Assembly: GCF_000022085.1 (NCBI RefSeq)
Contig: NC_011894.1
Span: forward strand, 7,301,001 to 7,365,000
DNA from: Methylobacterium nodulans ORS 2060
GTDB lineage: Bacteria; Pseudomonadota; Alphaproteobacteria; Rhizobiales; Beijerinckiaceae
DNA: 64,000 nt
Reading direction: 5' to 3'
The translations under genes were made by a program, and so were the position numbers. How positions within the stretch are numbered: the first letter of the stretch is position 1; every line of letters begins with the position of its first letter. Under the pieces are notes generated by a model. The model worked only from the letters and a program-made list of their open reading frames with translations. It was not told the DNA's origin and did no database searches. Below are positions 8,241-11,131 of this stretch, one piece after another.

Positions 8241-9833
8241 TCAGCGGAGGAAGTCCGCGATCAGCGCCGGGGCCGCGGTGTCGAACCCGACGACGTCGAG
8301 CATGCCGGCGTCGTTCGGGTCGGCGATGCTGAAGCCGTTGGAGACGAGCCCCACGACCACGAGCTTCGCGGCGATCCCGGTGCGCTCCCGGTAGGTCCGC
8401 AGGGCCTGGACCGGATGCACCTCTCCCGCCCACGTCTCCGAGTCCGTGTAGACCACGAAGGCGTCGGCCGGGATGCCGCGCTCCAGCGCCCACAGCATCG
8501 GCAGGGCGCAGTCGGTGCCGCCGAAGGGCAGGCCTTCGGTAGCCGCCACCGCCGCGTCGAGCCGCATCGACGGCCCGAACGGCAGGGGCGTCAGCGCCGT
8601 GCCGCGTCCGCGGGCGCCGGCCGTGAAGCCGACCACCTGCCAGCTCTCCTCGGTCGCCGCGGTGACGAGCGCCATGGCGGCGGCCGCCTCCCGGGGCGTG
8701 AGGCTCGACCCGGCGACCGAGCCCGAACCCATCGAGCCCGACACGTCGAGCGCGAGGACGAGCCGGCGGCCCGTGGGCTCCACCGCCCGGAACGCCGTGT
8801 AGAAGGCGGCGTTCAGCGCCTCCACGATCGCCCCGACCGGCTCCCAGGCGAGGCGGCCCCGCTCGCCGCGCCCCGACGCATAGGTCTTGAGCGCGACGAG
8901 GAGCGCCATCGGGTGCAGGCGCGCCTTGAGCAGGCGCTCCCGGTCCGACAGCGCGGCGACGACCCGCGCGGTCCCGGCGGAGAACGGCGCCAGCACCCCG
9001 GCCGCCGTCAGGCGCCCGAGCTGGCGCACCATCGCGCCGACCGGCATGCCGTCGAGCAGCGCCTCGTTCACCGCCCGGCTCGCGAGGAGCTCGGTCGGCA
9101 GCGCCTCCCAGGGCAGGCCGTGCGAGCGGACGAGCGCCGCTGCCGTCGCCCCGTTCACGCCCTCCCGCTGCACCGCCGCGAAGGCGTGCACGAGGGGCGG
9201 CAGGGCCTCGCCGAGCGTGCCGCGGCAGATCCAGTCGAACAGCGCCGCCCGCTCCGCCTCCCCGGTCTCCGGGTGGGCGAGCCGCAGGAGGTCGCGGTGC
9301 GTCCAGCCATACCGCGCGCGGTACTTCACCGCCTGGTAGGCGAGCGCCTCGACGGAGCGCTCGCCGTACCAGCGCCCGACCGCCCGGCGCAGGCCCCGGC
9401 CCCAGCCGCGCGTGGCGTCAACAGCCCCGGCGAACCGAAACAGGTGCGTGCCGGTGCGGCAGACCCGCGGCAGGGCAGCCAGCGCCGCGCGGCGCACCGC
9501 CAGATCCGCCGCGCCCGCGGCGAGCGCGAGGGCGAAGATCGCCGGGTCCTGCTTGGGCGCGCGGCCGCCCTCGCTCACCGCGACGATGGCCTCGACCGCC
9601 CGCACCCCATCCGCCGCGAGGCAGCGCAGCACGGCGCCCGCATTCTCGCGGGTGAGCGCCCGCTCGCCCGCGTAGTAGGAGCCGCCCTCGGACCCGAGCA
9701 CGAGGAAGCGATCGAGCTGCGTCCAGTCGTCGACCGGGAAGGCGTGGCCCCCAGCCGTGTTCGGCACGGTTCCGGGGATGGACTCCGACTGCGGGGTGCG
9801 CCGGAGCGAGAACAGCTTCGCGTAGTCGACCAT
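8241..9833 (-). CDS. rsr: Ro60-family TROVE/VWA RNA-binding protein (Rsr)
   Basis: This 530-residue protein is a bacterial Ro60 orthologue, a ring-shaped RNA-binding protein that holds Y RNAs and misfolded RNA. In Deinococcus and Salmonella it works with exonucleases such as PNPase in RNA decay or rRNA maturation. The N-terminal TROVE domain is marked by TPQSESIPG and [16 protein letters not shown], then HEAT-like helical repeats. The C-terminal von Willebrand A domain has an intact MIDAS motif, [12 protein letters not shown], and ends near [13 protein letters not shown]. Length matches the family (about 520-540). A ribosome-binding site AGGAG precedes the ATG. Directly upstream on the same strand lies an array of Y-RNA-like genes, the expected ligands, and no gene intervenes. 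Co-transcription is plausible. No rtcB or rtcA ligase gene, which flanks rsr in some bacteria, is present nearby. Confidence 0.96.
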
Positions 9834-9936
9834 CGCTCGGTCCTCTCCTGGCTCGGTCCTCTTTTGGCGAGGCCTCGGGAGCCTGCTCCGTCGGCCTGGC
9901 TTCGGTGGGTGGCGGCGCTGGTGCGCCGCGGGGGAC

Positions 9937-9963
9937 GGCCGCGCGCGCTCTGCCCGCGCGGCC
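9937..9963 (-). other. Hairpin between the Y-RNA array and rsr
   Basis: Perfect 9-base arms (GGCCGCGCG and its complement) enclose a 9-base loop. Read on the minus strand, its first 12 bases are identical to the 5' strand of the fourth Y-RNA unit at 10250-10261. It may be a degenerate Y stem or a processing or terminator-like hairpin in the rsr leader. Confidence 0.5.
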
Positions 9964-9997
9964 GATCGTGTTGCGTCTCGCTCCGCCGGCCTTGAAG

Positions 9998-10126
9998 CCG
10001 CACGGTCATGAATGTCGGTGAAGGATCTTCTGGTGCTCTATTTGAGCTACGGACCTTTCGGCTCGGCGGGACTCGCACCCGCACCCCCCAGATCCTGCGA
10101 TAACCTTCTCCGTCCGGCCCGTGCGG
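9998..10126 (-). ncRNA. Y-RNA-like gene 5 (YrlA type, tRNA-mimic)
   Basis: This 129-base unit is closed by CCGCACGG (10119-10126) pairing with its complement at 9998-10005. The interior mimics a tRNA in permuted order: a T-arm of 5 base pairs with a 7-base TGCGAGT loop (10066-10082), an acceptor-like stem capped by a GAAA tetraloop (10050-10065, one mismatch), then a short D-arm GCTC-AAATA-GAGC (10035-10047). The Y stem takes the place of the anticodon arm. This layout is that of the YrlA bacterial Y RNAs. It is the unit nearest rsr, and its 5' end abuts unit 4. Confidence 0.85.
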
Positions 10127-10261
10127 GCCGCGCGGTCGTGGTGTGAGGAACGGTGTCGTGGTGCTCTACCGGCTGAGCTACGGAACTTTCGGCCCGGCGG
10201 GGTTCGAACCCGCGACCTCCCCATTCGCAGTGGTAACCGTCCCTCCTCGGCCCGCGCGGCC
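10126..10261 (-). ncRNA. Y-RNA-like gene 4 (YrlA type, best-formed tRNA-mimic)
   Basis: This 136-base unit has a perfect 10-base outer stem (10252-10261 with 10126-10135) and a perfect 8-base inner stem with one G-U pair (10236-10243 with 10147-10154), separated by an internal loop. The tRNA-like part has a T-arm with loop TTCGAAC (10197-10213), an acceptor-like stem with a GAAA cap (10181-10196) and a complete D-arm GCTC-AGCCGGTA-GAGC (10163-10178). The order is T-arm, capped acceptor, D-arm, so it is not a tRNA gene. There is no anticodon arm and no free acceptor end. Its 5' strand carries the motif CGGGCCG...ACGGTTAC shared with the other units. Confidence 0.9.
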
Positions 10262-10290
10262 GACGAGACGCAGATCCGGCCGTGCGTGGG

Positions 10291-10426
10291 CCGTGCAGGC
10301 GTGGGGATCGGGGACGGTGCGATTGAGCTACGGATCTCGCGACCCGGCGGGCTTCGAACCCGCACCCTCCGCAGGGCGGACCCTGCGGCGCTCTACCAGA
10401 TAACCGTCTCCGTTCGGCCCGCACGG
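10291..10426 (-). ncRNA. Y-RNA-like gene 3, with tRNA-mimic opened at the D-loop
   Basis: The outer stem is 10 base pairs (10417-10426 with 10291-10300). The inner stem is GGAGACGGT with ACCGTCCCC (one mismatch, 10403-10411 with 10310-10318). Between them lies a nearly whole tRNA shape: the second half of a D-arm (TGGTAGAGC), a hairpin where the anticodon arm would be (8 base pairs, TCCG loop, 10369-10388), a T-arm with loop TTCGAAG (10347-10363), a perfect 6-pair acceptor stem capped by GCGA (10331-10346), and the first half of the D-arm (TAGCTCAATC). The D stem would close between 10390-10393 and 10325-10328. The Y stem therefore leaves through the D-loop, unlike in units 4 and 5. Confidence 0.85.
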
Positions 10427-10613
10427 GCAACGATCGGACAGGATGGATGATGTGAGGAATGTTGCGCCGCAGCCGGCGCCGGGTCAGGCTCCGAGCGAGG
10501 CTCGGCCTTGAATCCTGCCGCCGTGACCGCTGGTTTCGCCCCGTGGACAGGCGAAGGCGGCGATCAGATCGCACTCTTTCATGCCGTTCTCCGTCCGCGA
10601 GGGACCCCAGGGT
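10427..10613. other. Spacer within the Y-RNA array
   Basis: No complete Y unit is evident in these 187 bases. Read on the minus strand there is a copy of the GGACGGAGAA element seen in unit 5, followed by an ATG that opens a 32-codon frame, and a TTCCTCACA segment similar to the 3' side of unit 4. These may be remnants of a decayed unit. The short frame has no family features and I do not call it a gene. Confidence 0.4.
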
Positions 10614-10683
10614 GGCGCGGGCATGCACTGACGCTCGGTGGTTTCGCGTGGAAGGCGGTAACCGAGCGTCTCCGGCCCGCGCC
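10614..10683 (-). ncRNA. Y-RNA-like gene 2, minimal hairpin without tRNA module
   Basis: This 70-base unit is a very strong hairpin: a perfect 9-base outer stem (10675-10683 with 10614-10622), a small internal loop, a perfect 10-base inner stem GACGCTCGGT (10661-10670 with 10630-10639) and a 21-base loop. The stem, internal loop and stem layout and the 5' sequence GCGGGCCGGAGACG match the Y stems of the neighbouring units. The terminal loop has no T- or D-arm, so it would resemble a classical short Y RNA. An attenuator hairpin is the alternative. Confidence 0.65.
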
Positions 10684-10691
10684 GGCGACGG

Positions 10692-10800
10692 GGCCTGCCG
10701 GACATGTCTGACCAAGGTGGACTGGGCGTTCCGCCCCCGCGGCTCGCGACCGCGGACGTCCGGATGGTGCGATGAACCTCGATCACCGGCCCGGCAGGCC
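10692..10800 (-). ncRNA. Y-RNA-like gene 1 (first unit of the array)
   Basis: This 109-base unit is closed by a perfect 10-base stem (10791-10800 with 10692-10701). It has a T-arm of 6 base pairs with a 7-base TCGCGAG loop (10737-10755), directly stacked on an acceptor-like stem GGGCG-GAA-CGCCC (10724-10736). The 3' part can fold as a weak D-arm (10706-10722) or pair with CGAGGT near the 5' side, so the D-arm is uncertain. Its 5' strand aligns well with that of unit 5 (CGGGCCGG, then AGGTT and ATCGC). The 5' end falls a few bases after the predicted start of the candidate promoter. Confidence 0.75.
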
Positions 10801-10810
10801 GATGGCGGGG

Positions 10811-10839
10811 TGAGTAGCGGGGGCGGTCGGGGGTGTCAA
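10811..10839 (-). promoter_or_regulatory. Candidate promoter of the Y-RNA array and rsr
   Basis: Read on the minus strand, a consensus -35 TTGACA (10834-10839) is followed after exactly 17 bases by TACTCA (10811-10816), a moderate -10. The first Y unit begins about ten bases further on. No comparable promoter was found before units 2-5 or before rsr, so the array and rsr may form one transcript from this site. Confidence 0.6.
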
Positions 10840-10882
10840 CGGGAAACTTGAAGAATCTTTCAGTTCGCCCCATCTCCCCGAC

Positions 10883-11131
10883 ATGGATTCCGTCCCGATC
10901 AATCCGGCGCAGATCCGCGCCGGACGTGGCCTTCTGAAATGGACGCAGGCGGTGCTCGCCGCCCGCGCGGCCGTCTCGGTGGTGACCCTCAACATGATCG
11001 AGAGCGAGCAGGTCACGCCTCGCGCCCGCACGCTGTCGGCGATCCGCTCCGCGCTGGAGCGCGAGGGCGTCCGCTTCGTCGGCGACGAGTCGGAGGGATT
11101 CGGGGTTCTGTTGCGCCGGCCCGCGGCCTGA
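10883..11131 (+). CDS. Small XRE-type helix-turn-helix protein
   Basis: This 82-residue protein has the compact helix-turn-helix pattern of XRE/Cro regulators: IRAGRGLLKWTQAVLAARAA, then SVVTLNMIESEQ and a final TLSAIRSALEREGVRF, with a short GFGVLLRRP tail. This tail layout is common in small alphaproteobacterial XRE proteins. It is transcribed away from the Y-RNA array, and its start lies 44 bases from the array's -35 element. It is therefore positioned to regulate both itself and the array, though no operator was recognised. The ATG at 10883 is the only sensible start. Confidence 0.8.
   Translation: MDSVPINPAQIRAGRGLLKWTQAVLAARAAVSVVTLNMIESEQVTPRARTLSAIRSALEREGVRFVGDESEGFGVLLRRPAA

Follow-up and report, generated by a model that had tools for sequence, protein, structure and literature searches.

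Results

The rsr locus and its array

The window, a stretch of 64,000 nucleotides from Methylobacterium nodulans ORS 2060, contains the sole TROVE gene detected in this 8.84-Mb genome, the Ro60 ortholog rsr. TROVE is uncommon in the phylum, with matches in 9 of 398 genomes, five of which match just a short part of the profile. Between a promoter-like sequence and rsr, sequence inspection and folding reveal five stem-closed units (U1–U5), all on the minus strand and encoded next to rsr in the same sense. The initial annotation had described five Y-RNA-like units in one orientation with rsr downstream on the same strand; the position of rsr is confirmed, and the units are borne out by sequence, folding, conservation and covariation. 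The features are as follows.

8241..9833, minus strand: rsr (Ro60 ortholog), 530 aa, with TROVE (PF05731) and vWA_Ro60 (PF25045) domains
9998..10126, minus strand: U5 (class F), built as U4; T-loop TGCGAGT, with G replacing U55
10126..10261, minus strand: U4 (class E), T arm, GNRA-closed acceptor and D arm, in the known YrlA order, on a Y frame
10291..10426, minus strand: U3 (class D), Y frame whose four-arm tRNA-like module is circularly permuted, with the opening in the D-loop
10484..10582, minus strand: short conserved reading frame of 32 codons, GGAG before ATG, beginning MKECDLIAAFACPRG
10614..10683, minus strand: U2 (class B), a bare Y stem of 70 nt lacking a tRNA-like module
10692..10800, minus strand: U1 (class A), closing stem, Y frame and two stacked hairpins, with no D arm
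10834..10839, minus strand: -35-like TTGACA, followed after 17 nt by TACTCA at 10811-10816
10844..10865, minus strand: imperfect palindrome AACTGAAAGATTCTTCAAGTTT, 4 nt before TTGACA
10883..11131, plus strand: divergent HTH_3 gene, 82 aa

The units share one layout, i.e., a closing stem, CGGGCCG-N9-GGTTAYC, a variable interior, CAYGNCY and the opposite strand of the closing stem, which sharpens the 5′ motif (CGGGCCG, GGTT, ATC) noted earlier. The C after GGGC is bulged and the next G pairs with Y in the lower stem of the Y frame; N9 and GG pair with the 3′ side to form the upper stem, and TTAYC starts the loop. Most units have N = 9 and some have 8, 10 or 11, and U1 departs from GGTTAYC by two mismatches (GTTCATC). 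The lower stem with its bulged C is formed by pairing of the 5′ and 3′ ends, and closing stems bound each unit individually.

For comparison we used 25 rsr loci from relatives (26 loci with the window), which are partly dependent, L023 and L029 deriving from one MAG. The nearest named relatives of rsr are from Methylobacterium and Methylorubrum (18 loci, L005-L022; 78-83% identity over the best segment). A unit-finding script returned 3-7 units in 24 of the 25 relatives and zero in L028, giving 126 units together with the window's five, a total that includes doubtful weak or over-long calls (e.g., L022 -1227, L027 -1190 and L011 -474). The script also ran too far at the 3′ ends of window U2, L020 -283 and L021 -274, and the end of U2 given here is from separate folding. 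Arrays of 3-7 units are the usual state in relatives and multi-unit arrays occur in several phages as well, so the earlier statement that Y RNAs usually lie near rsr in one or two copies fails for this group.

Recurrence of the signature upstream of rsr

A uniform rule allowing one mismatch to the signature found 122 sense and 6 antisense occurrences in the 26 rsr loci, with 1 to 7 sense occurrences per locus. Within 1.3 kb upstream of rsr in these loci, GGGCCG was followed by GTTAYC at +9 to +12 in 92 of 175 occurrences, 82 of the 92 sharing one identical distance. Elsewhere in 25 of those loci and on the other strand, GTTAYC lies within about 30 nt of GGGCCG in 3 of 639 cases, and two of these three, which have the same distance, are probably further units of L024. 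When phages and plasmids were included (45 loci, 54 kb per strand), GGTTAYC upstream of rsr numbered 135 sense and 0 antisense copies, compared with 12 in 206 kb covering rsr and the sequence downstream of it; six of the 45 loci (L015, L176, L179, L182, L185 and L186) lack it in the 1.2 kb preceding rsr. Here too the loci are partly dependent, the units of L169 and L172 being identical. The recurrence of the shared signature upstream of rsr is not due to chance.

The same or a close signature is present in Acetobacteraceae, Actinobacteria, a cyanobacterial plasmid and actinobacteriophages, the last beside their own rsr. Frames adjacent to rsr were found in the actinobacteriophages Cashline, FuzzBuster (with GGGTCG), Sparky (with GAGCCG) and HyRo (with AGGCCG), on a Picosynechococcus plasmid (N10), in Nonomuraea (GGGTCG) and on a Rhizobium plasmid (GAGCTC replacing GGGCCG), and the viral contig L168 has six GGTTATC sites beside rsr. 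At least 120 viral stretches were drawn by CGGGCCG-N9-GGTTATC alone, and among the 120 matches listed, 26 have an Rsr match by tblastn, 22 of them over >300 residues and four shorter, of 57-160 residues, where the stretch ends; the listed stretches lacking an Rsr match may be chance matches or units located away from rsr.

Architecture and covariation of U1, U2, U4 and U5

Four units had been credited with a hairpin of 7-base loop beside a capped stem. This holds for U1, U3, U4 and U5 as a description of shape, and T-loop sequences are present in U3 and U4 and also in U5, where G takes the place of U55. In U1, which has a hairpin of 6 bp with a 7-nt loop and a second hairpin GGGCG-GAA-CGCCC, the loop TCGCGAG is unfit for a T-loop, and assignment of this hairpin as a T arm was rejected. 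The earlier YrlA-like fold applies to U4 and U5, which follow the YrlA order; U3 is no standard YrlA, and U1 and U2 do not have the YrlA order.

Covariation was counted on MAFFT alignments with the named structure, window included, against shuffles, and kinship among sequences can lift such counts above shuffles even if there is no structure. In the stems of classes A, B, D and E the number of cells with compensatory changes lies above the shuffle means, and slid controls fall to 25-51% paired in all four classes; the comparison with related genomes that had been proposed as a check favors the stems. For class A (U1; 10 sequences), 91.7% of cells are paired, with double changes in 3 pairs and 4 cells (shuffles 1.2 and 1.2). 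Class B (U2; 19 loci including the window, 18 distinct rows) has 90.5% of cells paired and double changes in 4 pairs and 13 cells (shuffles 3.1 and 7.4); its counts of pairs and of pair types with change are not above shuffles, being reached by 132 and 97 of 500, respectively. Class E (U4; 18 sequences) reaches 95.3% paired cells, with double changes in 9 pairs and 28 cells (shuffles 4.7 and 9.0).

These values bear on the view that only U4, U5 and perhaps U3 are working Y RNAs, that U1 and U2 are decayed, and that tandem duplication produced the array as a side effect. Such decay would account for the missing tRNA-like module in U1 and U2, for class F units that lack the module in L005 and L011, and for the loss of class D from L011. 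However, the lower stem of the U2 counterparts is 98.9% paired in 19 loci, every stem of the U1 counterparts is at least 82% paired in 10 loci, and preservation at the same position is hardly expected from decay. We consider this explanation unlikely.

The T-loop of U5 has TGC replacing TTC, as do its counterparts in L016, L017, L018, L020, L021, L022 and L024, and the usual pseudouridine site would therefore be missing in this type; YrlA has been reported as a substrate of TruB and DusA (PMC8394870). ARAGORN calls a tRNA-Arg at 10188-10263 on the minus strand, overlapping U4, which we read as a miscall that contains the T arm of U4, not its D arm. The program also calls a tRNA-??? at 9890-9967 on the plus strand.

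A predicted tRNA-like module opened in the D-loop

In U3 the GGTTAYC-type motif is followed, after 0-3 nt, by GGTAGAGC and a hairpin, then by an AGGTC-like spacer and a T arm, and finally by a capped stem and TAGCTCA. Its parts are the following.

10390..10397, minus strand: 3′ half of the D arm, GGTAGAGC, with G18G19 and GAGC
10369..10388, minus strand: anticodon-arm-like hairpin, CCGCAGGG-TCCG-CCCTGCGG, with no conserved anticodon
10347..10363, minus strand: T arm, GCGGG-TTCGAAG-CCCGC
10331..10346, minus strand: acceptor-like stem closed by a GNRA loop, CGGGTC-GCGA-GATCCG
10324..10330, minus strand: 5′ half of the D arm, TAGCTCA

These elements correspond in turn to the 3′ half of the D arm, an anticodon-like arm, the variable loop, the T arm, the acceptor and the 5′ half of the D arm, so that, as far as the letters and their predicted pairing tell, the order is that of a tRNA read from the D-loop with the two ends of the acceptor joined. 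The module has the four arms and the landmark bases (G18G19, A14 and the T-loop) of a permuted tRNA. The Rfam YrlA model, in contrast, runs from T arm to acceptor to D arm and is opened at the anticodon side, whereas U3 is opened at the D-loop.

The arrangement is found in the window and in 17 of the 18 Methylobacteriaceae relatives, L011 being the only exception, and also in L159 (genome G008). Class D landmarks comprise G18G19 in 16, A14 in 16 and U8 in 13 of 18 sequences; the T-loop is present in 18/18, having served to locate the place, and the spacer before the T arm is tRNA-like in 18/18, the allowed forms having been set after the alignment was inspected. A GNRA cap closes the acceptor-like stem in 8 of 16 class D rows, U3 included. 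Across the 18 sequences, 91.6% of cells are paired and double changes occur in 8 pairs and 14 cells (shuffles 3.0 and 3.3). The D stem is 98.6% paired, with three of its four pairs invariant and the fourth departing once; this near-invariance makes it a case of conservation, not of covariation. Folded as a single sequence, U3 forms the D, anticodon-like, T and acceptor stems with pair probabilities of 0.88-1.0 (D stem 0.99-1.0). Over the class, the D-stem probability is at least 0.48 in 13 of 18 members and <0.3 in the other five (L013, L014, L015, L021 and L022), and several members also have a weakly predicted T stem (<0.1 in L006 and L017). When class D sequences are re-ordered to tRNA order, ARAGORN reports a tRNA in 12 of 18, compared with 2 of 18 in natural order; its relaxed threshold is non-discriminating, calling 18/18 in both orders, and was set aside as proof of a permuted tRNA.

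The class D loops vary and are mostly not 7 nt long, i.e., there is no 7-nt anticodon loop with a fixed anticodon. Since the anticodons are unconserved, the U3 module would be a mimic and not a decoding tRNA.

One could regard U3 as an ordinary Y RNA with a T arm and acceptor only, in which GGTAGAGC, ahead of the anticodon-like hairpin, is a remnant left by chance, as might be argued from D-stem pairs that barely vary and from the weak prediction of this stem in five of the 18 members. Yet all 18 class D sequences have GCTC following the acceptor and, 0-3 nt past the GGTTAYC-type motif, GGTAGAGC (at most two changes); the tRNA-like spacer and the frequency of G18G19 point in the same direction, and U3 folds with its D stem unaided. 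A chance remnant is decidedly unlikely in our estimation.

A covariance model of class D (R1) scores its own 18 members at 107-139 bits and everything else in 71 sources at 76 bits or less. At E <=0.1, R1 yields 145 matches, unsorted as to true and false, many of which are other Y units of the 71 sources; window U1, U2 and U5 are not listed at this threshold. The pattern GGTTAYC-N0-6-GGTAGAGC matches 27 of 398 genomes of the phylum and at least 120 viral stretches. Application of a full-architecture rule to 336 loci, which misses the known class D members L010, L018 and L022, leaves 20 distinct sequences: 16 from Methylobacteriaceae, one from the phage contig L040, L071 and L181, which look like ordinary tRNAs by eye, and the doubtful L077. 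The U3-like unit of L040 scores 64.7 bits and reads CGGGCCG-N9-GGTTATC-GGAAGAGC ... TGTAGCCCA; its D stem has three of four pairs and is not formed in the fold (probability near 0), and the contig encodes a TROVE protein about 22 kb away.

Control region and short reading frame

The TTGACA-17-TACTCA sequence previously proposed as a promoter is present at the start of the array, and TTGAC-N16-18-TA is kept at the equivalent place in 18/18 Methylobacteriaceae relatives. A generic promoter scan found 0 promoters and did not report this sequence. A palindrome of the form AACTGAAAGAATTTTCAAGTTT (at most two changes) lies 4 nt before TTGAC-N16-18-TA in 19/19 Methylobacteriaceae loci and in 0/7 others, and the window form is a single site in 8.84 Mb when up to three mismatches are allowed. 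It lies at the -35 box and is a likely operator. By eye, L023, L024 and L029 show different AT-rich inverted repeats at this place.

The HTH_3 gene is divergent upstream of rsr in 21 of 25 bacterial relatives (18 Methylobacteriaceae and 3 Acetobacteraceae loci) and was found in 0/19 phage, plasmid and viral-contig loci; its product is a likely regulator of the array. The short reading frame that lies between U2 and the unit after it is present in 19/19 Methylobacteriaceae loci, its ATG 28-37 nt past U2 and preceded by GGAG in 17 of 19 (GGTG in L005 and L013). It is 24-37 codons long and often has a core like VAAFARPG in relatives. Among single-difference codons of the eight-codon core, 280 are synonymous and 178 not in this frame, compared with 132:334 and 119:219 in the other frames, counts that are dependent because the sequences are related. 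The frame may encode a leader peptide or small protein. Together with the HTH gene and the palindrome, it forms part of the array locus.

A single promoter-like sequence, a minus strand on which the scan reported no terminator-like site and a conserved reading frame inside the region are also what one would expect if the region were the leader of the rsr mRNA, with regulatory hairpins and a leader peptide, instead of separate RNAs. We hold this to be highly improbable, however, since loci of different phyla and of phages repeatedly carry the Rsr-type stem signature upstream of rsr, and each unit is separately enclosed by closing stems.

Comparison with known Y RNAs

Bacterial YrlA (RF02553; Salmonella rsr-yrlBA-rtcBA; PDB 6CU1) resembles the present units in having rsr as a neighbor and a closing stem of 5′ and 3′ ends. 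The YrlA order of T arm, closed acceptor and D arm is shared by U4 and U5 and not by U1, U2 and U3, the last differing by its permutation in the D-loop and an extra anticodon-like arm; circular permutation of YrlA relative to tRNA is already known (PMC11472068). Salmonella has two Y RNAs, compared with five units here, and its locus includes rtcBA, whereas the array is accompanied by an HTH_3 gene and neither rtcBA nor RtcR was found among the five neighboring frames scanned for domains. The covariance-model search proposed earlier was carried out: no window unit reaches the RF02553 cut-off of 69 bits, and a relaxed search gives best scores of 39.2 (U5), 36.5 (U4) and 22.5 bits. No control genome (0/14) lies above the cut-off and 7/14 are matched by the relaxed search; on these grounds, filing the units under RF02553 was rejected. 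Despite these scores, the signature, synteny and compensatory changes mark the units as putative Rsr-linked Y RNAs.

Tethering of PNPase to Rsr by Y RNA, and tRNA-type modification of YrlA, have been reported (PMC8394870, PMC7790460). The Deinococcus radiodurans RYPER has Rsr and a Y RNA in common with the present locus, and a tether or gate function is likely by analogy with its accounts (PMC4726728, PMC8394870); it differs in that several Y RNA types are present here and that the link to PNPase is by analogy only.

In a relaxed Rfam scan, the nematode stem-bulge RNA consensus CGGUCCG-N9-GGUUAUC (RF01656) aligns end to end with U5, a weak match (20.8 bits, E 0.26, cut-off 38) that we treat as resemblance only. 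Y RNAs of nematodes and vertebrates are described as having a bulged C and a loop that opens with UUA(U/C)C, and those of nematodes also a nine-pair upper stem (PMC4450293). As far as that description goes, the units here share with metazoan Y RNAs the bulged C, the nine-nucleotide upper-stem strand and, directly after it, a loop whose 5′ side starts with UUA(U/C)C, but the loops are otherwise different. The bulged C is reported as kept in bacterial Y RNAs (PMC4030889), which one source calls not homologous with the vertebrate clades (PMC4726728). We found no report of UUAYC in bacterial Y RNAs in the literature searched, which was in part available as excerpts, nor, in that literature, of a D-loop-permuted Y RNA, including in alphaproteobacteria; both may be known already.

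Discussion

We propose that the five-unit array, with one promoter-like sequence and one Y signature, is co-transcribed and loads Rsr with at least four Y RNA architectures, a reading to which we assign a probability of roughly two in three. From the anatomy of the array, its conservation and its covariation we infer how the units would be transcribed, processed, bound, partnered and regulated. All five would be co-transcribed from the one promoter-like sequence and each would be excised by a nuclease as a separate RNA, of which the lower stem with the bulged C would bind to the outside of the Rsr ring. The distal end would then decide what Rsr tethers or gates: U2 would tether nothing bulky and U1 a two-hairpin module, U4 and U5 would present a tRNA-like module attached by its anticodon end, as in YrlA, and U3 a four-arm tRNA-like module attached by its D-loop. 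Rsr would thereby form a family of particles, some presenting one and the same tRNA-like effector in either of two orientations and others presenting none, e.g., towards PNPase, for action on structured or damaged RNA; the divergent HTH protein on the -35-box palindrome would set expression of the array. The initial suggestion that differing Y RNAs serve different Rsr complexes is strengthened to the extent that the units have distinct, conserved predicted architectures, and this difference with conservation is, at the level of sequence, what is new here.

The tRNA-like modules might instead be decoys for tRNA-cutting or tRNA-modifying enzymes, with Rsr just stabilizing them and the phage arrays acting likewise. 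YrlA has been suggested as a possible competitive inhibitor of an anticodon nuclease (PMC7790460), phages do carry arrays beside rsr, and U3 makes four arms available; on the other hand, U1 and U2 have no tRNA module, and the anticodon-like loop of U3 is unconserved and mostly not 7 nt. The same source observed no YrlA fragments, from which it follows that YrlA itself is uncut, and this is neutral with respect to decoys (PMC7790460). Overall, a decoy role seems to us quite unlikely.

Returning to an array that supplies Rsr with several Y RNAs, a broader proposal is that one operon places the same tRNA-like ring on a Y stem in two permutations, next to tRNA-free stems, and that the bulged-C/UUAYC frame is ancestral to bacteria, phages and animals; we regard this proposal as evenly poised. 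In it, U4 and U5 would be opened at the anticodon arm, and U3 would be opened at the D-loop with a blank anticodon arm added. Attachment of the tRNA-like end in two topologies within one operon appears to be new.

As tRNA mimics, bacterial Y RNAs are known in a single topology, and work on the UUAYC motif in animals has concerned its role in DNA replication. A second permuted topology in the same operon would be a natural experiment on the purpose of the tRNA-like end, since permutation in the D-loop would place the stem that binds Rsr at the elbow instead of the anticodon end. If the broader proposal is true, the shared UUAYC motif would predate animals and be tied to the Y frame itself.

Reading frame and probable regulator at the Y RNA array

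The array of Y-RNA-like units upstream of rsr, the Ro60 ortholog, holds a short conserved reading frame, which has a counterpart in the Y RNA array of every Methylobacteriaceae locus compared (19 of 19, the window included) and is preceded in most of them by a GGAG site. Ahead of the array lie a divergently oriented HTH_3 gene and a palindrome that abuts the -35 box of the array.

10484-10582 (-), short conserved reading frame inside the Y RNA array
10844-11131, palindrome and divergent HTH_3 gene

Inspection by eye of two actinobacterial rsr loci, L026 and L027, revealed arrays preceded by another palindrome, of the TGTAACGCGTTACA type. At the Roseomonas acroporae locus, L024, the following gene is flanked on either side by additional Y RNA units.

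L024:2457-3146, methyladenine glycosylase gene (PF03352) within the Y RNA array

Distribution and variation of the motif and units

Five viral contigs (L168, L061, L039, L071 and L049) carry rsr together with 4-6 motif sites per contig. On the Rhizobium plasmid L178, GAGCTC replaces GGGCCG ahead of four GGTTATC sites; the stem that binds Rsr may exist here in a variant form. Another genome of the window's family, G038, has three CGGGCCG-N9-GGTTATC sites on a single strand within less than 1.2 kb (C422:3472-4621).

In U5, the unit at 9998-10126 (-), and its counterparts, U55 of the T-loop is replaced by G at seven Methylobacteriaceae loci; units of this type are predicted to lack the pseudouridine that the other units would receive.
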